A DNA stretch of 64,000 bases from Gammaproteobacteria bacterium (GTDB lineage: Bacteria > Pseudomonadota > Gammaproteobacteria > Eutrophobiales > Eutrophobiaceae): NCBI GenBank assembly GCA_030835405.1, contig JAURPG010000053.1, positions 1 through 64,000 on the forward strand, given 5' to 3'. The notes below the pieces were generated by a model, which had not been told where the DNA came from, did not search any database, and worked only from the letters and a program-made list of their open reading frames with translations. The position numbers were made by a program, and so were the translations under genes. Every line of letters begins with the position of its first letter. Position 1 is the stretch's first letter. Of the stretch, positions 5,817 through 17,849 are shown one piece after another.

Positions 5817-6647
5817 ATGAGCCTGTTAGAAAAAATTGAAATTGTAAATGTTTCAGATGTGGGGAAATGCAGGCCACATAATGAAGACAGTACATTAAGT
5901 GATTCCAGTGAAGGACTGGTGATCCTGGCAGATGGAATGGGGGGATACAAAGGCGGTGAGGTTGCTAGTGCCATTGCGGTAACGTCTATCCACTTTGAGA
6001 TATTAGCCGGGCTGGGAAAGATTCAGCGTGGTAAAAAGACTGAAAATTCAGAAATCAGTCTGGAATCAGACGTGATAAAAAATGCAATAACTTTAGCAAA
6101 TTCAGAGATTTACAGTACTGCCCAGACAGATCAGCAATGCCAGGGCATGGGAACCACCATTATTGTTGCGCTGTTCCATAATAATAAATGCACCATAGGT
6201 CATGTGGGTGATTCCAGGGCATACCGTAAAAGGGCCAATACATTTACCCAGATCACTAAAGATCATTCGTTAATTCAAGAACTTATAGATAGGGGCATGT
6301 ATACACCTGAAGAAGCGGTAAAGCATGCCCCAAAAAATCTGGTCACCAGGGCCATGGGAATTGATAGCCAGGTTGAGGTTGATATTGGCGAGGATATCGT
6401 TGAACCCGGGGATATTTATATGCTGTGTTCAGATGGATTAAATGATATGGTAGGGGATGAAGAAATTCACTTAACCCTAAGTAAATATAGTGCTAATCTA
6501 GCACAGGCTTCTGACGAATTAGTTCGATTAGCAAACACCAAAGGGGGAAAGGATAATATTTCCATCATCCTGGTGAAGGTTTTGGAAGAATTTTCAAGCT
6601 CCGATGGGGGCATAATAAAAAAACTAAAAAGTCGTTTGTTTCAATAA
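5817..6647 (+). CDS. PP2C-family Ser/Thr protein phosphatase (Stp/PrpC type)
   Basis: Metal-dependent cytosolic phosphatase that removes phosphate from Ser/Thr of proteins phosphorylated by Hanks-type kinases. The 276 residues match the bacterial single-domain form. Seen: R-P-H-N-E-D at 19-24, the metal-binding Asp in ADGMGG (Asp39), GMGTT, GHVGDSRAYR, TKDHSL, CSDGLNDMV, and GGKDNISIILV near the C-terminus, which are the conserved PP2C motifs in order. Basic tail, no membrane segment. It is followed after 24 bp by the FHA gene, so the two probably form an operon and act on the same phosphoprotein circuit. The only Hanks kinase in the window is about 54 kb away (60746). Confidence 0.95.
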   Translation: MSLLEKIEIVNVSDVGKCRPHNEDSTLSDSSEGLVILADGMGGYKGGEVASAIAVTSIHFEILAGLGKIQRGKKTENSEISLESDVIKNAITLANSEIYSTAQTDQQCQGMGTTIIVALFHNNKCTIGHVGDSRAYRKRANTFTQITKDHSLIQELIDRGMYTPEEAVKHAPKNLVTRAMGIDSQVEVDIGEDIVEPGDIYMLCSDGLNDMVGDEEIHLTLSKYSANLAQASDELVRLANTKGGKDNISIILVKVLEEFSSSDGGIIKKLKSRLFQ

Positions 6648-6671
6648 ATGTCAGGGGACAGGACATAATCG

Positions 6672-7403
6672 ATGTCTAAGTTAGTATTAAGCTTAAATGG
6701 AGTCGTACAAGGCGAATATGAACTCAATCAGGAGAGGGTTACGATTGGGCGCAAAGCCGAAAATGAGATTCCAATTGATAATCTTGCCGTTAGCGGCAAA
6801 CACGCTCTAATCATTACAATTCTGGATGACTCATTCCTGGAAGACCTTGGTAGTACCAATGGGACTTACGTGAATGGAAAACTCATTAAAAAACATGCCC
6901 TTAAGAATGGGGACGTGATTGCCATCGGCAAGCATGAATTGAAATATGTCAATGATGCCGTTGGGGATGACTATGATGAGGATGAATTTGAAAAGACCAT
7001 GATCATCAAGCCCGGCTCTGCCAGTGCGGCAGTTGCGGCCGCCAAGGCGGCAGAAAATGCCGGCGCAGCAGCAGAACCAGCCAGGCCTGCATCGGCAGGA
7101 GCCCCTGCGGGTGGTGGCGGCGGGATGCCACTGGGTAGATTGACTGTCCTTAACGGCCCGATTGCTGGCAAAGAACTGGAATTAACCAAGGCGCTGATTA
7201 CACTTGGTAAACCCGGGACCCAAGTAGCTGTTATTTCCCGTCGGCCACAGGGTTACTTTTTGACCCATATTGAAAGTGATGGCGATGGTAAACGTTATCC
7301 GACAGTTAATGGCGAACCCATTGGTCCAAAGGCATATCAGTTAAAAGATGGTGATTTGATTGAGCTGGCAGGGATTAAGATGGAGTTCAGTAGTTCGAAT
7401 TGA
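6672..7403 (+). CDS. FHA-domain phosphothreonine-binding adaptor with a second degenerate FHA-like domain
   Basis: 243 residues. The first FHA domain (about 2-95) has the canonical pattern: G26-R27, then SGKHA at 41-45 and GSTNGTYVNG at 60-69, which form the phosphothreonine-binding site. A Thr at 109 sits in an acidic stretch (DEDEFEKTMII) that resembles the phosphorylated segments of GarA-like FHA proteins. Residues 118-151 are an Ala/Pro/Gly-rich flexible linker. Residues 155-239 form a second FHA-like fold (VNGEPIG, LKDGDLIELAG) that lacks the first Ser/His signature. A good Shine-Dalgarno (AGGGGACAGGA) precedes the ATG. Paired with the PP2C gene, and ends at a strong terminator shared with the opposing STAS gene. 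Confidence 0.93.
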   Translation: MSKLVLSLNGVVQGEYELNQERVTIGRKAENEIPIDNLAVSGKHALIITILDDSFLEDLGSTNGTYVNGKLIKKHALKNGDVIAIGKHELKYVNDAVGDDYDEDEFEKTMIIKPGSASAAVAAAKAAENAGAAAEPARPASAGAPAGGGGGMPLGRLTVLNGPIAGKELELTKALITLGKPGTQVAVISRRPQGYFLTHIESDGDGKRYPTVNGEPIGPKAYQLKDGDLIELAGIKMEFSSSN

Positions 7404-7423
7404 TTTACAATTAGTCGTATTAG

Positions 7424-7450
7424 AAAAACCGCCTTTCGGCGGTTTTTTTA
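7424..7450. terminator. Bidirectional rho-independent terminator between the FHA and STAS genes
   Basis: A GC-rich stem (AACCGCC / GGCGGTT) with a TTTC loop, flanked by an A-run on the left and seven T on the right. It sits 20 bp after the FHA stop and just beyond the stop of the convergent STAS reading frame (7454), so it can end both transcripts. Confidence 0.93.
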
Positions 7451-7453
7451 TGC

Positions 7454-7788
7454 TTATGAATCTGCCTGGATTCTTGCATCAACAGAATCATGAATAGGGA
7501 ATATCTTGTCCAGCCTGGCCAATTGCAATACATTCATTGCTGCATCACTAACACCAATAAATCCAAAATTTACGTTGATTTTCTTGGCGGTCGATAACCT
7601 TCAACAAGACTGGCTATGACTGAGCTGTCAATATAACTAACTTGTGACAAATCCACTAGAACACCTATATTGCTATCTTCAAGACAGGCCAGGATCTGCT
7701 TTCTGGCATCGGGTGAACAGGACAAATCTACCTCACCTGACATTTCCACAACCTTGTAACCAGCCTCTTCTCTCTCATTATATTTCAT
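7454..7788 (-). pseudogene. STAS-domain anti-anti-sigma factor, frameshifted
   Basis: The STAS domain of a partner-switching system, which binds the anti-sigma kinase when its conserved Ser is dephosphorylated. From ATG 7788 the frame gives 66 good STAS residues, including YIDSSVIASLVEGY, then runs out of homology and stops at 7570. Reading one frame over from about 7577-7591 recovers KINVNFGFIGVSDAAMNVLQ, then LARLDKIF, and ends at TAA 7456-7454. That makes an ordinary STAS length of about 111 residues. A lost A in the AAAA run at 7579-7582 would explain it. The usual Gly after DSS is Val here. Last gene of the minus-strand signalling operon. Real mutation, sequence error and ribosomal slippage are all possible; slippage is least likely. 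Confidence 0.85.
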
Positions 7789-7842
7789 TGATAAACCTGC
7801 TGGTTATTATTAATTTTTAATACTACTACGCTTAAAAAAAGC

Positions 7843-8271
7843 TTAATCAAGATTGATCAGCATTTCCATATAATTCCCTTTATTATCATCCAGATGACCC
7901 ATTTTAAACTCATCCATAATTTCCTGAATGAAATGAATCCCCAGGCCGCCGGGCCTGATATCATCCAAATCCCGTGGCTTTACACTATCTAAATTGATTG
8001 GCGGTGCGTGGTCTGTCAATCGAAATCTCAGCCCTCCACTTGTCTTTGACAGCTCTAATTCAAATATCCCTTCTCCAACATCTTTATAGGCATGAGTAAT
8101 AATGTTCATACACGCTTCATTAACTGCTATCACAATATTTTGGGCCAATTCCTTACTGCAACCATCATTTTCCAATGCCCGTTGGACGACAGATCTGACT
8201 AATGCCAAACGATCTGCTTCGGCAGGTAACTTCAATTTAAACAACAATTCTGGGTCTATATTTGGCTGCAT
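7843..8271 (-). CDS. Anti-sigma factor / GHKL serine kinase (RsbW-SpoIIAB type)
   Basis: 142 residues with a HATPase_c fold. N-box NEACMNIITHAYKD at 51-64, Asp87 in LTDHAPP, and the G-box PGGLGIHFI at 107-115 are present. In partner switching such a protein phosphorylates the STAS protein and otherwise sequesters a target, classically a sigma factor. The start overlaps the end of the upstream phosphatase gene by 16 bp, so the two are translationally coupled. The STAS gene follows after 54 bp. No sigma factor gene lies nearby, so the target is unknown and may not be a sigma factor. Confidence 0.92.
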   Translation of the reverse strand: MQPNIDPELLFKLKLPAEADRLALVRSVVQRALENDGCSKELAQNIVIAVNEACMNIITHAYKDVGEGIFELELSKTSGGLRFRLTDHAPPINLDSVKPRDLDDIRPGGLGIHFIQEIMDEFKMGHLDDNKGNYMEMLINLD

Positions 8272-9536
8272 TCAATCAATAAAATGGTTATGTCATCGTG
8301 TTGGCCTTCATTTGGCCGCCTTATATTACTGACAATCGAATCAAGTCGCTTGCTACTAATAGTCTTGGAATTGGATTTAATCAGATTGATTAGTCCATCA
8401 ACTTCCAGTTCCTTTCCTGATTCATCCATAGCCTCTGTTACGCCATCCGTGAAAACATATAAGCTCTCTCCGTCCAGTGAAAGGGTCGTCGCAGGAAACT
8501 CGATCCCGGTCATAATCCCCACCGGTGGGGCCGTTGCCGGCAGCTCCTCAAAGGTGTCATCATTTTTATGGAATAAAGGAGGTTGATGTCCCGCATTGGC
8601 AAAACTCACAATATTGGTCTGTGGATCAATAAACCCTGATACCAGGGTCACAAACATCCCATGGGATACCGTCTCACAAATTTCATCGTTCACACGCTGT
8701 AGCAACTTCGCCGGGTCTTTCATGTCCTTTGCCAGGTGATGCAGTAAACTGCTCACATTGGCCATTAATAAGGCTGCATTCATCCCTTTTCCTGACACAT
8801 CGGCAAGATTAAAGTAAATAAGTCCGTCTTCCCTTTGAAAGAAATCAAAGAAGTCCCCTGACACCTCGCTGGCGGGGTAATTCAATCCCTGGACCAGGAA
8901 TTCCTCATCAACCGATCTGGGTAACAGGCTTTCCTGGATTTCCCGGGCCAATTCCAGTTCTTTCTGCATACGTTCCTGCACTACTAACTGGTCAGCCATC
9001 CTGGCATTATGAATTGCAAGAACTGCTGCAGATGCCAGCGCAATCATGATATTTTCATCACGCTTGTCAAATAATCCATCGCCACCGCGTTTATTAATCA
9101 GTTCCAAAGCACCTATGCATTCTTCCAGGACCATTAATGGTGCGCAGAGAATAGACCGGGTTTCAAATCCCGTATCTTCATCTACATTCTGGGCAAAATC
9201 CGGGTCTTCCCTGATATCTCTGACGATCTGGCTGGAACAGGTATTGACAGTTTTGCCGACAATTCCCGCAGTGGCAGGCAAGGTCAGGCCGGTGATATCT
9301 ACCGGGCCGGCACAACCCCGACAGACCAGTTGCTCACCGTCATCTGTGAGTAAAAAGATGGATGCTGCCTCTGCATCCAGGTATTGAATAAATCGCTCGA
9401 TTGCAATATTGAGTGTTTCGTCGATATCAAGAGATGCAGCGAATGATTGAACCACTTCCGCCAGTAGTACCAACTGTGAATCCAGATCCGGATCGGTTTC
9501 TGTTTCGAACAGGGAATATACATTACTGGACTTCAT
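8256..9536 (-). CDS. GAF-domain SpoIIE/RsbU-type serine phosphatase
   Basis: 426 residues. An N-terminal GAF sensor (about 25-180) is followed by a short linker with REIQESLLP at 198-206, the usual entry to this phosphatase class. The PP2C_SIG/SpoIIE domain (about 213-423) carries metal-site residues in GDFFDFF (Asp228), ADVSGKGMNAAL (Asp246), NAGHQPP, FTDGVTEA (Asp364) and HDDITIL (Asp414/415). It would dephosphorylate the STAS protein when GAF senses its ligand, releasing the anti-sigma partner. No membrane segment, so cytosolic. Its start overlaps the DUF1841 stop in an ATGA arrangement and its end overlaps the kinase gene: a tight operon. Confidence 0.94.
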   Translation of the reverse strand: MKSSNVYSLFETETDPDLDSQLVLLAEVVQSFAASLDIDETLNIAIERFIQYLDAEAASIFLLTDDGEQLVCRGCAGPVDITGLTLPATAGIVGKTVNTCSSQIVRDIREDPDFAQNVDEDTGFETRSILCAPLMVLEECIGALELINKRGGDGLFDKRDENIMIALASAAVLAIHNARMADQLVVQERMQKELELAREIQESLLPRSVDEEFLVQGLNYPASEVSGDFFDFFQREDGLIYFNLADVSGKGMNAALLMANVSSLLHHLAKDMKDPAKLLQRVNDEICETVSHGMFVTLVSGFIDPQTNIVSFANAGHQPPLFHKNDDTFEELPATAPPVGIMTGIEFPATTLSLDGESLYVFTDGVTEAMDESGKELEVDGLINLIKSNSKTISSKRLDSIVSNIRRPNEGQHDDITILLIECSQI

Positions 9537-9958
9537 CAGGTTAGCTTCCTCAGGCTTTCCATGTATGCCCGCTCATCCGGCATGGCACCAGTTTGTTGCG
9601 CCTTCCATAATGACTCTTCCAGACAATCCATTATTATATGTTGTAACTGGTGTTCATCAGGGTATTTTGTCAGTAATGACTGGTAAAGAGAAGAAATTCC
9701 GATGGGTCTATCAGTTGATACCTGTTCCAGCAGGGCAATATGCAGGCCCATATGAAGAAATGGATTTTGTTGCTCATTGAAACAATCTTGATCTTCGACG
9801 ACTAAATCTAAATCGTCAAGAATTATGTGATATTCGGGATGTCCCTGGATCACATGACAAACCATTAACTCCAGAGGCTCCATGGGTGTTGATTTGCGAA
9901 ATTTCTGCCAGGCCTGAAAAAATACACGCCTGCTTTCATCACGATCCTGAATAATCAT
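9536..9958 (-). CDS. DUF1841 family protein
   Basis: 140 residues, matching the length and character of DUF1841, a proteobacterial family of unknown function. Seen: a start rich in Arg/Glu, a central HPEYHIILDD segment, NPFLHMGLHIALLEQVSTD, and a C-terminal helix with CLEESLWKAQ. No signal peptide or membrane segment. It is the first gene of the minus-strand operon and overlaps the GAF-phosphatase gene by the four bases ATGA. The coupling puts it in the partner-switching unit, but in other genomes the family is also found alone, so a signalling role is only an inference. Confidence 0.85.
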   Translation of the reverse strand: MIIQDRDESRRVFFQAWQKFRKSTPMEPLELMVCHVIQGHPEYHIILDDLDLVVEDQDCFNEQQNPFLHMGLHIALLEQVSTDRPIGISSLYQSLLTKYPDEHQLQHIIMDCLEESLWKAQQTGAMPDERAYMESLRKLT

Positions 9959-10097: not shown

Positions 10098-13000
10098 TCA
10101 GGGTATAGAGAAGCCCGCAGCCCCCATAATGACATCCGTTTCAAGTATTTCATATACAATACCAATATGCTTTGGGACGCCTCCTGAATTTGGTCCAGCG
10201 AAGCCACCATCTATAAATGCACCACAGTTGGGATTACAGGCGCTTCCTGCCGCGACAGTACTCGCCGTTACGCCGCTAGTAACATCAAATACTGCGCCAT
10301 TTGCAGGGTCTACAATCAAACTACCATTCACATTGTAAGCCGCACCGTTATGACCAACATTCATATTAATTGTACCAGTCCCGGCAAAATCAATTCCTAT
10401 CGTTCCAGAAGTTGCACCGTCGCCTATGGTACTGCCACTTGCACTTGTGGATGATGTTCCTCCGGACCAATTATATGTGGCCAATCCGGAAGTATTGATA
10501 ACACCTGGATCCTTACCAAAAACAAAGTGTGCGCTCTGGTTGCCCGTTAGAGGATTCTCATCTGTCCCCGATGTCGCATCAAATGAAAGTACAGAACCAT
10601 TGGTCCACCGTCCCCAACCGATACCATCAGTCGCATCATAGAATGAATCCTGAATGGAAGCAGCACCTGATGTATAGGCTGAGATTATTGATTGATCGCC
10701 AGTGCTCTGGGCAGTAATAAGCGAATTCACTTCAGTCACTGAGGTTGAATCATCACCAACAAGCATCAGATCCAGATCGACTGTGTTAACCACTCGAAAA
10801 GTACCAACCGGAGAATCTAAATCTTCAGTCCCCAATGCACCAACTACATTATCATTTTCATCCAGAAAAATAGAGGCATCCCAGCCAGTCGTTGACTCTT
10901 CGGGGTTTATACCAACATATACCGAATTCGTTTGAACGGTGCTTGTTGGTGTTGCCGTGAAACTGCCGAATTGAAATACCCCAACGCCCATGATTAGATC
11001 TGTTGTCTGAATATCATACTCAAAACCGGCATATTTGGGAAAGACGTCAGATACCGGTCCGGTAAAACCACCCTCAATAAACGTCTCACATGACACGGTA
11101 CATTCACCGCCAGTTGCGGTAACCTGGGATACACCACTAACCTGAAAATCAAAGAATGCGCCATCAAAAGGATCAATAAGAAGTGGTCCCTGTACATTGT
11201 AGTCAATACTGTTGTGCGATACATTCATATCCAGATCTGCTGAATATAATGCGAAATTGACATCTATCGTACCTGATGTAATTCCATTCCCAATTGTACT
11301 GCCACTAAAAGACGTAGACTGAGTGCCATCTAAAAATGAGTAACTGGCGCTTTCATCATTGACAGGTATTGCCGGTGGCTCCATACCAAATAGATAGTGA
11401 AAGCTCTGCGTGCCAGTCAGCTCAATGATTTCATTATCCGCAACAACACTACTTTCATTGAGCACCAGAATATTACCTTCGGCCCATCTTGCATACCCAA
11501 TCTCACCATTGCTAAAAAATTCAACCGGACTGGCAGGGTTTGCCTCAAACGACGCAATCAAAGCCGAGTCGGCCAATGCTTCCAGGGACTGAGCAGAACC
11601 TGCTGCCGCAGCATTGTTTGCGCCCAATACAGCCTCCAGATCGATAGTTGCTAATACCTGTGTAGAAGGACCGATATCATCTTCTGCCAGACCGAGAATA
11701 CCCACCACTTTGCTGTCTGAATCACGTTGAAAAAGTGACGCACCAAATTCAACACTCGGCACATCCACACTATCCGGCTCTGACGCATCGGGTAGCACAC
11801 CGATTAATCCAAACCCAGAAAGCACGGTAGATGTAGCAGGTGCATCAAAGTTTGAAAATGAAAACGCAGCCACGCCCATGATGGGGTCTGTTACCAGAAT
11901 GTCATATTCAAGACCAATATACTTGGGGAAATTCCCACTGGCTGGACCTGCAAATGAGGCATCGATAAATGTATCGCAGGGCAAGCAATCGCCACCTGAT
12001 GCCAGCACTTCCAAATCTGATAATAAAGCGTCATTAGGCTCTACAATAAGAGTCCCGTCAATAGCATAATTGATACTGTTATGTGACACATTCATATCCA
12101 GAAAGGCAGAACTGATTTCGAAATCGACACCAATAACCCCGCTGGTTACCCCCTGGCCGATGGTATCACCACTAACCGTTGTGGACTGGGTGCCATCCAG
12201 AAAGTTATATGTGGCCTTACCTGCCAACGTAGGTAAAGCAGGCGATTGGGTACCGAATATATAGTGAGCACTCTGATGATTGATAAGTACTCCAACATCG
12301 TTATCGCCATCACCCTCTCCTAGTGTCAAAACATTACCATCTGTCCAGCGACCAAAACCGATCTCTTCATTAAAGAAAAACTCTGCTGATGTGGCGGGAT
12401 TTTCCTCGAATTGGGCTATTAACGCCGGACTGGCTGCAGATAACAGTCTCTCCGCCACTGCAACTTCAGCGGCATTATCACCACCCCTGATTGCATCGAT
12501 ATCTATCGTTGCCAGGGACACAACTTCATCACCTTCTTCTATTCCAAGTATTCCGATCCCCGCACTATCTGAACTTCGCCTAAAGATAGAGGTCCCGAAA
12601 TTAAACTCGAAGATATCCAATCCATCTATTGCCTCATCATCAGGGAAAACTCCCAGCACACCAAAGTTCGTCAGTACGGCTGAATTTACCCTAGAGGATG
12701 AAATGATATCCTGGTCTCCGGTTTCATCACGCTGTTCGGCCACTGCAACAATTCTGGTCTGTTCCTCGGCCTCCCGATTTTCCTGTTCTTCCTCTTCAAC
12801 TTCCTCGCGCGAAGTATCAACTGCAAGTAGTGCTGGTGGTTGATCCAATACTTCGATCTCTGTATCGATATCCTGAACATAAACACCTGTACCAGAGGGA
12901 ACATCTTCAACATCGACATCGTTAACTACAAAGGTAATTCCTTCCCAGGTATGGTGATACAGTCCGTCTGGACGACTATCGCAGTCTCCAGCACAAATCC

Positions 13001-13454
13001 GGGTATTATGCCCCGTCCCGCGGATACCAATCGTTGCAACAGCAGTATTGACTTTATATGCCTCAGGATTTTGGCGACCAATTAACCCTGTCACCGCCCT
13101 GACACCACCTTTAACCAACCGATAAGAAGCCTGTTCTGTACCATCTGGTGACCCGGAATAATTATAAGTCTCAATCTGGTACTCGGAATTTGGCTGGACT
13201 GAAATAAAAGCGCCATCCACCATGCTCAACTGCAACCGACCATTGTCAGTAATCAACCTATCACCGGAAAATATTTCATTTCCTCGTGCCAGATTTCGCT
13301 GTACGCCAGCGGTGTTTGTTGCCGTAGCCCCCCCCTGAGCAAAGACTATACGACCTGCCGCGTCCTGCGCTGACACATTGTGAATAAGGCTCAAAGACAT
13401 AAGTACAAGGATTGACCTGACTAGATATATTTTTTTAGGTAAAGAGGTTCTCAT
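10098..13454 (-). CDS. Large secreted FecR-domain protein with three TbpB-like beta-barrel repeats
   Basis: 1118 residues from ATG 13454. An in-frame ATG at 13541 lies inside the upstream gene; I prefer 13454 because AGGAAA sits before it and it begins a clean signal peptide ending near HNVSAQ|DAAG. Residues 31-150 are a FecR domain (GDRLITDNGRLQLSMVDGA, VRAVTGLIG, TAVATIGIRGTGHN). A Glu-rich linker at about 215-240 leads to three repeats of about 275-285 residues. Each has GRW or ARW, an H-Y/F-x-FG segment, GTQST-type strands, IGxGxTSGxI, MNVxHN, a close Cys pair, then FxGPxSGxxPKxxGxxYDI and IMG. These recall the solute-binding barrels of TbpB-like proteins. No lipobox and no C-terminal anchor seen. 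It starts 16 bp after the TPR-barrel gene. Confidence 0.85.
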   Translation of the reverse strand: MRTSLPKKIYLVRSILVLMSLSLIHNVSAQDAAGRIVFAQGGATATNTAGVQRNLARGNEIFSGDRLITDNGRLQLSMVDGAFISVQPNSEYQIETYNYSGSPDGTEQASYRLVKGGVRAVTGLIGRQNPEAYKVNTAVATIGIRGTGHNTRICAGDCDSRPDGLYHHTWEGITFVVNDVDVEDVPSGTGVYVQDIDTEIEVLDQPPALLAVDTSREEVEEEEQENREAEEQTRIVAVAEQRDETGDQDIISSSRVNSAVLTNFGVLGVFPDDEAIDGLDIFEFNFGTSIFRRSSDSAGIGILGIEEGDEVVSLATIDIDAIRGGDNAAEVAVAERLLSAASPALIAQFEENPATSAEFFFNEEIGFGRWTDGNVLTLGEGDGDNDVGVLINHQSAHYIFGTQSPALPTLAGKATYNFLDGTQSTTVSGDTIGQGVTSGVIGVDFEISSAFLDMNVSHNSINYAIDGTLIVEPNDALLSDLEVLASGGDCLPCDTFIDASFAGPASGNFPKYIGLEYDILVTDPIMGVAAFSFSNFDAPATSTVLSGFGLIGVLPDASEPDSVDVPSVEFGASLFQRDSDSKVVGILGLAEDDIGPSTQVLATIDLEAVLGANNAAAAGSAQSLEALADSALIASFEANPASPVEFFSNGEIGYARWAEGNILVLNESSVVADNEIIELTGTQSFHYLFGMEPPAIPVNDESASYSFLDGTQSTSFSGSTIGNGITSGTIDVNFALYSADLDMNVSHNSIDYNVQGPLLIDPFDGAFFDFQVSGVSQVTATGGECTVSCETFIEGGFTGPVSDVFPKYAGFEYDIQTTDLIMGVGVFQFGSFTATPTSTVQTNSVYVGINPEESTTGWDASIFLDENDNVVGALGTEDLDSPVGTFRVVNTVDLDLMLVGDDSTSVTEVNSLITAQSTGDQSIISAYTSGAASIQDSFYDATDGIGWGRWTNGSVLSFDATSGTDENPLTGNQSAHFVFGKDPGVINTSGLATYNWSGGTSSTSASGSTIGDGATSGTIGIDFAGTGTINMNVGHNGAAYNVNGSLIVDPANGAVFDVTSGVTASTVAAGSACNPNCGAFIDGGFAGPNSGGVPKHIGIVYEILETDVIMGAAGFSIP
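10101..12680 (-). repeat. Three tandem protein repeats inside the FecR gene
   Basis: Repeat units span about 12680-11853, 11825-10968 and 10937-10101. They align through their whole length at the protein level but have drifted at the DNA level. Units 1 and 2 are most alike (both keep FLDGTQST and MNVSHNSI); unit 3 is the most divergent and has lost part of the N-terminal half. Each holds one pair of cysteines three to four residues apart. Confidence 0.85.
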
Positions 13455-13470
13455 ATCACTTTTTTCCTGT

Positions 13471-14802
13471 TTAGAAATTGTATCGGGCAGTTGCAAATAC
13501 CTGCCATCGATCAAAATCATTAATAACAAAATTTGAATCATTGATTAAATATCTCACTTCACTGGTTATAACCCAGTGATCACCATATGAGTGTTCAAGA
13601 CCACCTCTCAGGAAAAAAAAGTTGTCCTTACGGGTTTCCTGAAACAAGGGATCTTCTCCACCATATTTACTATGTTGATAGTTGGCGCTGGCTATCCATT
13701 TCATGCTGTCGTTAATACTGTATTCGCCACCTGCCCGGATTCCAAAGTAGGTTCGGCCAAAATCAGGCCGGGTAGCTTCTAACTCATCATCGGTTCCCAC
13801 ATATAAACTACCGAAAATAATCGGGCTGGCTTCCCCAGGCAATAAGTGTACTACGCCTACACCCCCACTATACTGGTTCAGATCCCGGATTTCCTGATCG
13901 GGAAAACGTTGGGTTAACCCCTGGACAAATACAGAATACTGCGTCCTCGTGCTGGCTGTGTGTAACCATTGAAAATTTAATCCCATCTGGTCACGGTTAG
14001 TATCATCATCTATTAAATAACGCTGGGCCTGTAATGACAGTAAGAACGAATTTTCATCCCTGGTGTGTCTCAGCCCCAGCTGACCATTACCGGCAGCTGT
14101 ATCGAAACGATGTTCATTCCAGGTGGGTCGATAAAAAATATTGGCTCCTCCAAATACCGAGATATTTCGATCCGGGTCAATACGACTTGAAAAGTTTAAG
14201 CCACCTTCCAGATTATAAAAGCCACTATCCAATTCCTGTGAAGTATCATCCAGTGTAAATACCAAATTACCGAAGGCAGGCAATGCCACGGTAGAGGTAT
14301 CCGTCGCACTGTTCACATTCATATCGTAACCAAGGCTGGCCTGTAGGTAGAAATTCAACTTTCTTTGCTGTTCTGCCAACCTGACCCTGTCGTCTATAGC
14401 TGTTAAATACTCTTCAATGGTTGCCTTGACTGTCTCTGGAACCTCCTGACTCTGAGTATAGGCAAACTCTTCTCTAGATGCCTCATTCTCACCCAGTTCA
14501 AAGTAGGCCCGCGCTAGTTCCAGTCGTGCTCGAGAATTATCTGGTTCGATGGCCAACACCCGCTCAAAAGCGAACACCGCCTGGGTAGGATGGCCAGAAT
14601 CCAGTGCTGCAATTCCGAGGAGCAAATCATATTCCGGTGTGCCCGCACGCTCATCTATATCTGCAAACAACAATTGAAATGCTTCTTCATTATTATTTGC
14701 ATCAATTAACTGCTGGGCGCGGTCTGTTAATTCATCGCCATACGTCAGCAAAGGGAGTGAGAATAGGAGTAAAGCAGGTATAATTTTATTATTTTTAACC
14801 AT
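13471..14802 (-). CDS. TPR plus outer-membrane beta-barrel protein, Slam-like architecture
   Basis: 443 residues. A signal peptide ends near LLTYG|DE. TPR-like helices occupy about 22-150 (AVFAFERVLAIEPDNSRARL, ARAYFELGENEASREEF). From about 155 the sequence alternates polar and aromatic residues as beta strands and ends in Phe (FATARYNF), a typical outer-membrane barrel terminus. The barrel part is about 290 residues. This periplasmic-TPR plus C-terminal-barrel layout and size match the Slam family (surface lipoprotein assembly modulator, DUF560), which moves TbpB-type proteins to the cell surface. The next gene, 16 bp downstream, carries TbpB-like repeats, which fits exporter and substrate. 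The Slam assignment is inferred from architecture, not proven. Confidence 0.8.
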   Translation of the reverse strand: MVKNNKIIPALLLFSLPLLTYGDELTDRAQQLIDANNNEEAFQLLFADIDERAGTPEYDLLLGIAALDSGHPTQAVFAFERVLAIEPDNSRARLELARAYFELGENEASREEFAYTQSQEVPETVKATIEEYLTAIDDRVRLAEQQRKLNFYLQASLGYDMNVNSATDTSTVALPAFGNLVFTLDDTSQELDSGFYNLEGGLNFSSRIDPDRNISVFGGANIFYRPTWNEHRFDTAAGNGQLGLRHTRDENSFLLSLQAQRYLIDDDTNRDQMGLNFQWLHTASTRTQYSVFVQGLTQRFPDQEIRDLNQYSGGVGVVHLLPGEASPIIFGSLYVGTDDELEATRPDFGRTYFGIRAGGEYSINDSMKWIASANYQHSKYGGEDPLFQETRKDNFFFLRGGLEHSYGDHWVITSEVRYLINDSNFVINDFDRWQVFATARYNF

Positions 14803-14900
14803 AGAATAATTCCCTAAAAAAGCATAACATCAAGACATCCAAACTTATTGCTCATTTGGCAAAAATTATAGCTCAATTAATCTAAATTTATACGACAACT

Positions 14901-17159
14901 TTATTTGGTTTTGTGGGTAAAGACTCCGTCCCATGACTCACCTGGAGAATCAACACGATATGCCCCAATCCGTTCCAGATATAAAGAATATACCAATCTA
15001 TCCTCATATTGAGTTTTAAGTTCATTCAGGATCTTTTCAGCCGTATCCCAATCCTGTTGACGGTAATATTTCAGGCAGTCATTATATTTTGCCATTTCTT
15101 CCTCTTCTTCCGGAGAGATTTCATCAACTAAAGCAATGGGTTCATATATACCCACCGGCTGGTCTTTGCCTTTTACCCTTACTAAGTCAAGCTCGCGATA
15201 TACATATTCAGGTACAGCATTTTTTGTCGCCTCACCAACAATGATCTCCACACCATATGTCTTAGTCAGCCCTTCCAGCCTGGAGGCAAGGTTTACTGCA
15301 TCTCCGAGTACCGTATAAGCCATGCGAAATTCAGAACCCATATCACCCACACTCATGGGACCGGAATTGATCCCGACACCAATCTTGATCTCAGGCCAGC
15401 CACGCTCTAGAAATATTTCCTGCACACCTTTCAATCTTTCCAGCATGGCCAACCCCCCTTTAATCGCATGGCGGGCATGGTCTTCATCCTTCAATGGAGC
15501 TCCCCAGAATGCCATTACGGCATCACCAATATACTTATCAATGGTCCCCCGACTTCCATGAATGATGCTGGTCATAGGTGTCAGATATAAATTCATTAAT
15601 TCAGACAACTCAGAGGCACTAAGACTTTCTGAAATCGTGGTAAAACTCCTGATATCTGAAAATAATACTGACATCTCCCGGGTTTGTGCACCCTGGATAT
15701 AGGATTCCGGGTCAGCGCTCATTTCACTGACTAGCTCTGGAGGCAGATACTGTCCAAACAATGCCGAGAGTTGACGTTTACCCCTGCGCTCAATGACAAA
15801 CCCATAAATGATATTAGTCAGGAAGAGTAGCGTGGTTAACAATAATATCGAAGCTAGTGGCATATGCAGGTTTAGGTTCTGCCAAAAGTACAGGTTCAAG
15901 GAAGTTGTACTTATTAGAATGGCTATGGTCGTGAGAATTGAGATTACCGGGCTCAAGTGCGGAAGCAATAATGACAATAACATGCCAATCACCAGAAGCT
16001 GTAAATATTCCATCCACCACAACTCGACAGGACTATGTTTTAAATTTTGATCAAATATCCCTGATAATAAATTTGCGTGAATTTCCACACCTGGAAATTC
16101 TGGATTTACCGGTGTCGATCTGAGATCTGACAGGCCTTTAGCGGACGTTCCAACTAATGCTATTTTACCTGCCAGATCCTCAATTGGTATTCTCTGCTCC
16201 ATGACATCAACGGCGGAAATATATTGATAATTTTGCCCCTTTCCCCTATAGGGAATCAATGCCTGCAAATTAACATCAACAGGTAAATTATGATCTGCGA
16301 TTTTCAGGCTTTCGATTTCACTATCGGTCGTAATTTTGCCTTCTTGATTAACGGAATATATTGGTTCAATCTCATCTGCAATTAGCATATACCTGGCGAT
16401 AGCAAGTGACAGGGCCTCATAATAATTTCCTTCAAACTCCATCAGCATTGGCACCCTACGCACAATACCATCTGCATCCAGTCCCCTGCTGGTATGACCG
16501 GTAGCAATGGCCGCTTGTTGAATCATTGGTAAATTGACACCATATCCACTGGCAACCGATGCATGAACGTTTCTACTGGCAAAGTCCTCCGCTGTTAATA
16601 CCGGCGGAGGAAGATTTCCTCCTCGCAAATCCGAGAATGCTTCTACCTCCGTAAAGAAAGTAAATCCTAGCACCACAGGCCCTTTCATCATGCTGTCAAC
16701 AAACATTTGATCATAATTAAGTCGTTGACTGATTTCGCCGAGGCGAGACCTATATTCAGGTAAATCTGAGAATTCATCATTTGCCAGGGACTCTAAAACC
16801 CTGAGACCGGAACTCTGATCTGCTTCCCTGAAGTAAATATCAAAGCCAATGATGGCAACAAAATAATTGTCGAATAGCTGATCAACCAGCAAGGCCATTT
16901 TGTCCCTGCCCCAGGGCCATCTTTCAACCTCAGCCAGGCTTTTCTCATCTATATCGATAATCACAATACGATCATCGTTTTCACCGGACACAGTTAGTAC
17001 AACCTTTAAATCGTACAGTTTATTCTCAAGCTGCTCGAGGAAGGCCCATTCGTAAGTCCCTCTGGAATATCCAAGAAAGGCAATCGTCATCAATAATGAT
17101 ATTATGATGATGAACAATTGCTTTCTATACTTCTTTAATGTTTGAAAAAGTATTTTCAA
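14901..17159 (-). CDS. CHASE2-domain class III adenylate/guanylate cyclase
   Basis: 752 residues. One N-terminal membrane helix (about 14-30) leads to an extracytoplasmic CHASE2 sensor (about 35-375; IVIIDIDEKSL, WPWGRDK, GKIALVGTSAKGLSD). Three membrane helices follow (about 385-455), then the cyclase domain (about 490-670). Catalytic features: metal Asp502 in FSDIRSF, Asp546 in KYIGDAVMAFWGAP, Lys542, and LGDAVNLASRLEG with Asp620 and Arg627. Lys and Asp at the purine-recognition positions favour ATP over GTP. A short TPR-like tail (about 690-730) ends the protein. Together with the next two genes it suggests an envelope-sensing cyclase linked to a surface protein. nth lies 51 bp upstream. 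Confidence 0.94.
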   Translation of the reverse strand: MKILFQTLKKYRKQLFIIIISLLMTIAFLGYSRGTYEWAFLEQLENKLYDLKVVLTVSGENDDRIVIIDIDEKSLAEVERWPWGRDKMALLVDQLFDNYFVAIIGFDIYFREADQSSGLRVLESLANDEFSDLPEYRSRLGEISQRLNYDQMFVDSMMKGPVVLGFTFFTEVEAFSDLRGGNLPPPVLTAEDFASRNVHASVASGYGVNLPMIQQAAIATGHTSRGLDADGIVRRVPMLMEFEGNYYEALSLAIARYMLIADEIEPIYSVNQEGKITTDSEIESLKIADHNLPVDVNLQALIPYRGKGQNYQYISAVDVMEQRIPIEDLAGKIALVGTSAKGLSDLRSTPVNPEFPGVEIHANLLSGIFDQNLKHSPVELWWMEYLQLLVIGMLLSLLLPHLSPVISILTTIAILISTTSLNLYFWQNLNLHMPLASILLLTTLLFLTNIIYGFVIERRGKRQLSALFGQYLPPELVSEMSADPESYIQGAQTREMSVLFSDIRSFTTISESLSASELSELMNLYLTPMTSIIHGSRGTIDKYIGDAVMAFWGAPLKDEDHARHAIKGGLAMLERLKGVQEIFLERGWPEIKIGVGINSGPMSVGDMGSEFRMAYTVLGDAVNLASRLEGLTKTYGVEIIVGEATKNAVPEYVYRELDLVRVKGKDQPVGIYEPIALVDEISPEEEEEMAKYNDCLKYYRQQDWDTAEKILNELKTQYEDRLVYSLYLERIGAYRVDSPGESWDGVFTHKTK

Positions 17160-17210: not shown

Positions 17211-17849
17211 TTAACAATATTTTTTTTTATCTTTCCATTCACAATAAGTATAGATTGAACAGCAAAAGCATTTAGGATTTCTGGCAATACAGGTATATCG
17301 ACCATGCAGTATCAACCAGTGATGGGCATTTTTTTTATATTCATCCGGGACCAATTTAAGGAGTCTGTTTTCCACCTCGAGAACATTTTTTCCTGGCGCA
17401 ATCCCAGTCCGGTTGGAAACCCTGAAGATATGGGTGTCCACAGCGATGGTGGGAAGTCCAAATGCAGTGTTTAATATGACATTGGCTGTTTTTCGACCAA
17501 CACCAGGCAATGCCTCCAATGCTGCACGATCACAGCGAACTTCACCACCATATTCTGACATCAATTTCCGGCATGTCTTGATGATATTTTTTGCCTTGGT
17601 ATTAAACAAACCGATGGTCTTTATATAATTTTTGAGTTTATTTTCACCCAGTTTGACCAGGGCATCAGGTGTATTTGCTACCTTAAATAGTTGCATAGTC
17701 GCTTTGTTCACGCTGACATCTGTCGCCTGTGCCGAGAGAATTACCGCAATTAGCAACTCAAACGTTGAGTCATAAATAAGTTCAGTAGTGGGATGAGGAT
17801 CCTGTTGCTTAAGAACTTCAAATATTTCTTGTCGTTTGGATTTATTCAA
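17211..17849 (-). CDS. nth: Endonuclease III
   Basis: Base-excision-repair DNA glycosylase/AP lyase for oxidised pyrimidines. The 212 residues match the family. Seen: the helix-hairpin-helix LPGVGRKTANVILN with the catalytic Lys, VDTHIFRVSNR with the catalytic Asp, and a C-terminal [4Fe-4S] loop with spacing Cys-x6-Cys-x2-Cys-x5-Cys. It follows rnfE by 26 bp, the order also known from E. coli (rsxE-nth), so rnfE and nth probably share a transcript. Confidence 0.98.
   Translation of the reverse strand: MNKSKRQEIFEVLKQQDPHPTTELIYDSTFELLIAVILSAQATDVSVNKATMQLFKVANTPDALVKLGENKLKNYIKTIGLFNTKAKNIIKTCRKLMSEYGGEVRCDRAALEALPGVGRKTANVILNTAFGLPTIAVDTHIFRVSNRTGIAPGKNVLEVENRLLKLVPDEYKKNAHHWLILHGRYTCIARNPKCFCCSIYTYCEWKDKKKYC

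Follow-up and report, generated by a model that had tools for sequence, protein, structure and literature searches.

Three adjacent, co-directional genes in a 64,000-nucleotide stretch of gammaproteobacterial DNA (Gammaproteobacteria bacterium, GCA_030835405.1, contig JAURPG010000053.1, positions 1 to 64,000; hereafter the window) encode a membrane adenylyl cyclase with a CHASE2 domain, an outer-membrane protein of the Slam/DUF560 (type XI secretion) family and a secreted FecR protein carrying TbpB-like barrels, which we call the cargo. The three genes, their domains and the two genes that flank them all lie on the minus strand. We put forward with moderate confidence that this is a variant type XI secretion locus serving as a surface sensor, in which a cargo held by its FecR domain would signal to the cyclase. 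A previous reading of the letters alone (the sequence-only reading) had proposed the same three-gene cluster, and the open reading frame (ORF) listing and Pfam searches confirm it. Profile matches were found and the neighbours in other genomes are non-random, the reverse of the outcome that had been set beforehand as counting against the grouping.

In nine of ten Slam/type XI secretion system (T11SS) clusters no member has been characterised (PMC8406197), and most T11SS proteins are without known or predicted cargo (PMC12282271). For environmental Slams the locus points to a class of cargo; it also suggests how cargo without a lipid anchor might remain attached and what might feed into CHASE2 cyclases, few of whose signals are known.

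A Slam-type protein and an unlipidated FecR-barrel cargo

The middle gene (13471..14802; 443 amino acids (aa)) matches the Slam/DUF560 profile PF04575 with 32.5 bits, above the curated cut-off of 22, and we file it as a member of the Slam family, in agreement with the sequence-only reading. PF04575 formerly took in PgaA sequences (PMC8406197). The N terminus of the protein matches the tetratricopeptide repeat (TPR) profile TPR_19 with 41.6 bits and TPR_Slam (PF24575) with 26.8 bits, the latter under its cut-off of 35.2. An AlphaFold2 model with a mean predicted local distance difference test (pLDDT) score of 92.2 shows a helical N terminus (TPR helices, residues 24–145) followed by 14 long strands (residues 148–442). 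Foldseek placed BcsC at the top of the matches to this model, with the 14-strand porins CymA and OmpG and also PelB present, and no solved Slam was among the matches listed.

The cargo gene (10098..13454) lies directly downstream. Its longest ORF, of 1147 aa, overlaps the Slam gene; the best start is an internal ATG (13454), from which the product is 1118 aa long and the gap after Slam 16 bp. From that start the protein opens with a 29-aa signal peptide of the signal peptidase I type (13368..13454), cleaved between VSA and QD; by inspection of the sequence this N terminus contains no cysteine and hence no lipobox. A FecR domain follows (13008..13250), which matches PF04773 with 30 bits (cut-off 24); 36 of 36 relatives also match this profile. 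The secreted 1118-residue FecR protein lacking a lipobox thus stands as originally described. The same domain also resembles LapA-type retention and cell-surface anchoring domains: the NCBIfam profile retention_LapA (NF033682) matches it with 21.7 bits (E = 1.8e-4), short of the curated 50 bits, and matches 32 of the 36 relatives at E <= 0.01 (best 8.5e-9). In a model of the FecR domain with the first C-terminal unit (pLDDT 87.4), the FecR half retrieved FecR-type anti-sigma domains (4m0n, 6ovk) and the cell-surface anchoring domain 5ix9, the last with a root-mean-square deviation of 0.8 over 63 residues at 28% identity. A retention-like FecR domain suggests a way to hold an unlipidated cargo on the cell. 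A low-confidence linker (12693..12821, pLDDT partly below 50) joins it to the first unit.

The remainder of the cargo comprises three units, each a handle plus a TbpB-like barrel. A profile built from 38 barrel units of the family matches the cargo three times (E = 2.4e-38, 2.5e-33 and 9e-33). Unit 1 (11853..12683, barrel 11859–12239) is defined by the model, the profile and Foldseek; the barrel of unit 2 spans 10971..11372 (E = 2.4e-38), with its handle between 11373 and 11850, and that of unit 3 spans 10107..10499 (E = 9e-33), with its handle between 10500 and 10970. Searched against the PDB at E <= 10, the profile matched 24 sequences, 23 of them TbpB, LbpB or hemophilin (best 4e-7), and the barrel half of the model retrieved HpuA (8.5e-5), TbpB, fHbp and PmSLP by Foldseek, with low TM-scores because the query holds two domains. 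BLAST self-comparison of the cargo did not reveal the repeats, whereas the profile did; single-sequence phmmer of the cargo against the PDB gave nothing useful. The Pfam profile TbpB_B_D (PF01298) likewise matched neither the window cargo nor 35 relatives in single-sequence searches, and the cargo from Paracoccus, described below, reached 22.1 bits against a cut-off of 26. The NCBIfam profile slam_lipo matched five relatives (best 4.6e-9) and the Paracoccus member (5.5e-9). The three TbpB-like repeats of the sequence-only reading therefore survive as three units by family profile and fold, without the single-sequence Pfam match: they are clearly TbpB-like barrels, though remote ones that stay below the cut-off of Pfam.

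The Slam–cargo pair is near-invariant

Within the taxonomic order of the host (53 genomes searched), a close Slam occurs in eight genomes, and a FecR cargo adjoins it in the same eight. In a FecR-motif scan of about 85,000 species, Slam lay upstream on the same strand in 33 of 33 barrel-bearing FecR loci with room for it, compared with 2 of 11 loci without a barrel (Fisher 8e-8; not all loci in this set are independent); one of the latter two, L098, has an apparently decayed barrel. A search with the barrel only, across 321 evenly drawn gammaproteobacterial genomes, matched 31 genomes including that of the window. From the others 34 loci were fetched, of which 31 carry FecR, and Slam was adjacent in all 29 FecR loci with room: directly upstream in 27, separated by one FecR gene in L185 and downstream in L189. 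That Slam and the FecR-barrel cargo form a tight, near-invariant pair is well supported.

Variants of the cargo were also seen. Tandem FecR cargo genes stand behind a single Slam in L088 and L182, the first in L182 being 1358 aa with three barrels. The short secreted protein encoded at L164 and L166 has the handle and barrel but lacks FecR, and its surroundings hold no Slam of this type.

The CHASE2 cyclase is a frequent, optional neighbour

The upstream gene (14901..17159, TTG start) encodes a 752-aa protein with a CHASE2 domain (about 15975–17072; PF05226, E = 1.6e-54) and a class III cyclase catalytic domain (about 15159–15686; PF00211, E = 4e-20), bearing out the proposed membrane cyclase with a CHASE2 sensor. 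It matches CyaB-type cyclases in the PDB (E down to 6.8e-32), and the residues of class III adenylyl cyclases are all present: the metal-binding aspartates D502 and D546, K542 and T616 for ATP, and N623 and R627. The catalytic residues are those expected of an adenylyl cyclase. The host genome encodes many cyclic nucleotide monophosphate-binding proteins, which could read cyclic AMP (cAMP). CHASE2 proteins of about 850–1000 aa recur 4–7 kb from a cyclase-sized CHASE2 protein (G200:C21, G221:C26, G333:C4 and others).

Of the 31 gammaproteobacterial FecR-barrel loci, 11, from nine families, have a CHASE2 cyclase in the fetched sequence, placed upstream, downstream or convergently, compared with a roughly estimated chance expectation of about 1.2% per locus (from 3.1 CHASE2 genes per genome). 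It neighbours the pair in four of the eight genomes of the host's order that have the pair. L172, L174, L183 and the betaproteobacterial L093, L100 and L101 share the window's gene order cyclase–Slam–cargo, and the trio extends to alphaproteobacteria as well as betaproteobacteria. On plasmid pAMI5 of Paracoccus aminophilus, which was found through its cyclase, a Slam-like gene, a FecR-barrel gene and the cyclase gene form an uninterrupted run; a tblastn search of plasmids with the window cargo gave no match despite this trio. CHASE2 is present in 29 of 31 barrel-bearing genomes versus 148 of 290 others, with kinship among genomes ignored. The link of the cyclase to the Slam–cargo pair is supported by this recurrence, with the cyclase a frequent, optional and rearranged neighbour rather than a locally obligatory one; of the proposed three-gene grouping, the Slam–cargo half is thus near-invariant and the cyclase is not.

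FecR proteins without a barrel were found in L009, L010, L012, L117 and L119, several of them having two FecR domains. At L117 and L119 a CHASE2 cyclase comes directly after the barrel-less FecR gene, a FecR–CHASE2 pairing without Slam.

Other neighbours vary. A TPR-GT41 glycosyltransferase (OGT/HMW1C-like) lies near the cargo in Burkholderiales and other loci (L083, L091, L095, L096, L097 and L161). L082 (35–18030) holds type I secretion ABC and HlyD genes, a LuxR regulator, a ClpP-like protein, Slam, the FecR cargo and a 1322-aa RTX/cadherin adhesin; after the adhesin, on the opposite strand, come a class II cAMP phosphodiesterase and a CHASE2 cyclase.

Genomic site

The three genes sit as one block, or cassette, between nth (endonuclease III; 17211..17849), outside the cassette at its upstream edge, and a DUF1841 gene (9536..9958) at its downstream edge. 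The same arrangement is found in G007, whereas in three other genomes of the genus (G008, G009 and G010) nth is followed directly by DUF1841, giving three empty sites; G009 carries the set at another site with the cyclase convergent. In the copy of G007 (L054/L070, CALSRS010000002.1), also of this genus, an in-frame TAG interrupts Slam and the reading frame of the cyclase is broken, through either decay or sequencing errors. Beyond the cassette, positions 5817–9536 of the window encode a PP2C phosphatase, an FHA protein, a GAF-SpoIIE phosphatase and an anti-sigma-type HATPase, all kept in G007. Promoter and terminator scans scored no better than shuffles.

A candidate surface sensor and its rivals

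The probable role of the set is to detect something external and relay it into the cell. In this model, the 1118-aa cargo would enter the periplasm through Sec, as its signal peptide predicts. Slam would recognise the TbpB-like C-terminal barrels and move the three handle–barrel units to the surface, as family, fold and near-invariant pairing suggest, while the N-terminal FecR/retention-like domain would fold and remain in the periplasm, anchoring the unlipidated cargo as in LapA-type adhesins. There it may touch CHASE2 of the adenylyl cyclase in the inner membrane, so that the cargo's ligand, a surface contact or the state of export would alter cAMP output, for which CyaK–NsrA of Sinorhizobium meliloti is the analogue. 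A stronger version, which we offer tentatively, is a type XI system that also serves to signal across the membrane: the cargo, its TbpB-like units outside and its FecR domain inside, would cross the outer membrane, and its export or binding state would gate the CHASE2 cyclase. Culturable hosts, Paracoccus aminophilus and Polynucleobacter among them, allow tests.

Several points weigh against the sensor model. The cyclase is absent beside the pair in about two-thirds of gammaproteobacterial loci and in most betaproteobacterial ones; glycosyltransferase or type I secretion neighbours at some loci point to adhesion rather than sensing; all matches to retention_LapA and slam_lipo fall under the curated cut-offs; the periplasmic placement of the FecR domain is argued by analogy; and the NsrA barrel is unrelated to Slam beyond its TPRs. 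The first two of these favour plain export, in which Slam secretes a binding protein or adhesin, the FecR-like domain only anchors it, as its match to retention_LapA would fit, and the cyclase is separate, at most controlling expression of the pair; the betaproteobacterial loci with GT41 glycosyltransferases, or with type I secretion genes and the 1322-aa RTX/cadherin adhesin, belong here. Recurrence of the cyclase beside the pair in nine gammaproteobacterial families and in beta- and alphaproteobacteria, in several gene arrangements, argues otherwise, as does the FecR–CHASE2 pairing that occurs without Slam (L117 and L119 included), and we consider plain export unlikely, although a serious competitor.

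A third arrangement takes its pattern from S. meliloti, where the product of the gene before cyaK on pSymB is 1190 aa long and combines FecR and TPRs with an outer-membrane part at the C terminus, and CyaK is a CHASE2 cyclase; from its size and layout we infer that this gene is nsrA. In the published account (PMC7529298), NsrA has its barrel at residues 600–1200, is needed along with CyaK for uL2 protein to elicit a cAMP response, and is by genetics the receptor through which an extracellular protein signal raises cAMP-dependent expression. By this pattern the TPR-barrel protein of the window would itself be the receptor in the outer membrane, nothing would be exported, and the FecR protein, TbpB-like units included, would act in the periplasm as a transducer or plug. 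PF04575, however, identifies the window's barrel protein as a Slam, barrels of the Slam-cargo type accompany such a protein at every locus with room, and NsrA itself has no Slam barrel match, which makes this arrangement improbable. Least probable by far is a polysaccharide exporter of the BcsC/PgaA/PelB kind with the FecR protein as accessory factor, for although BcsC tops the Foldseek matches, PelB is among them and PgaA sequences once stood in PF04575, the model has 14 long strands rather than 16, Pfam recognised no polysaccharide synthase gene around the trio, and the pairing with TbpB-like cargo is near-invariant.

Comparison with known systems

With the Slam/type XI systems (DUF560, PF04575; cargo such as TbpB, fHbp, HpuA and hemophilin) the window shares the TPR plus 14-strand outer-membrane protein and a neighbouring cargo with handle and eight-strand barrel. 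It differs in the N-terminal FecR/retention-like domain, the missing lipobox, the three handle–barrel units and the nearby CHASE2 cyclase. Unlipidated and multi-barrel Slam cargo is already known (PMC8406197, PMC12282271). FecR and CHASE2 are not mentioned in either of these surveys, and no paper joining FecR with Slam was found in the open-access literature (subscription papers lay outside the search), in keeping with the early remark that FecR is not a usual Slam cargo. The retention module of LapA-type adhesins resembles the cargo's N-terminal domain by profile and fold, but those RTX adhesins travel by type I secretion, not through Slam.

On the signalling side, NsrA–CyaK offers a likeness in architecture, a CHASE2 adenylyl cyclase being coupled there to FecR, TPRs and a barrel in the outer membrane, and lends support to the cyclic-nucleotide link first suggested for this locus. 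It differs in that FecR, TPRs and barrel form one polypeptide, the barrel is not Slam and TbpB-like units are absent; a test of NsrA as a fused Slam gave the idea no support, its barrel showing no Slam match. A CHASE2 cyclase cluster of Campylobacterota contains a phosphodiesterase, a FecR outer-membrane protein and a TPR protein (PMC9239204); compared by description only, it holds the same kinds of gene, with no Slam or TbpB-like cargo reported. The BiofilmReg operon of Burkholderia encodes a LysM-FecR protein and a CHASE2 histidine kinase (PMC5192318), sharing the FecR–CHASE2 sensor pairing but differing in its histidine kinase output and its lack of Slam and barrels. Signalling from FecR to CHASE2 is already familiar; the new element is its connection with export through Slam, which brings together two separate literatures.

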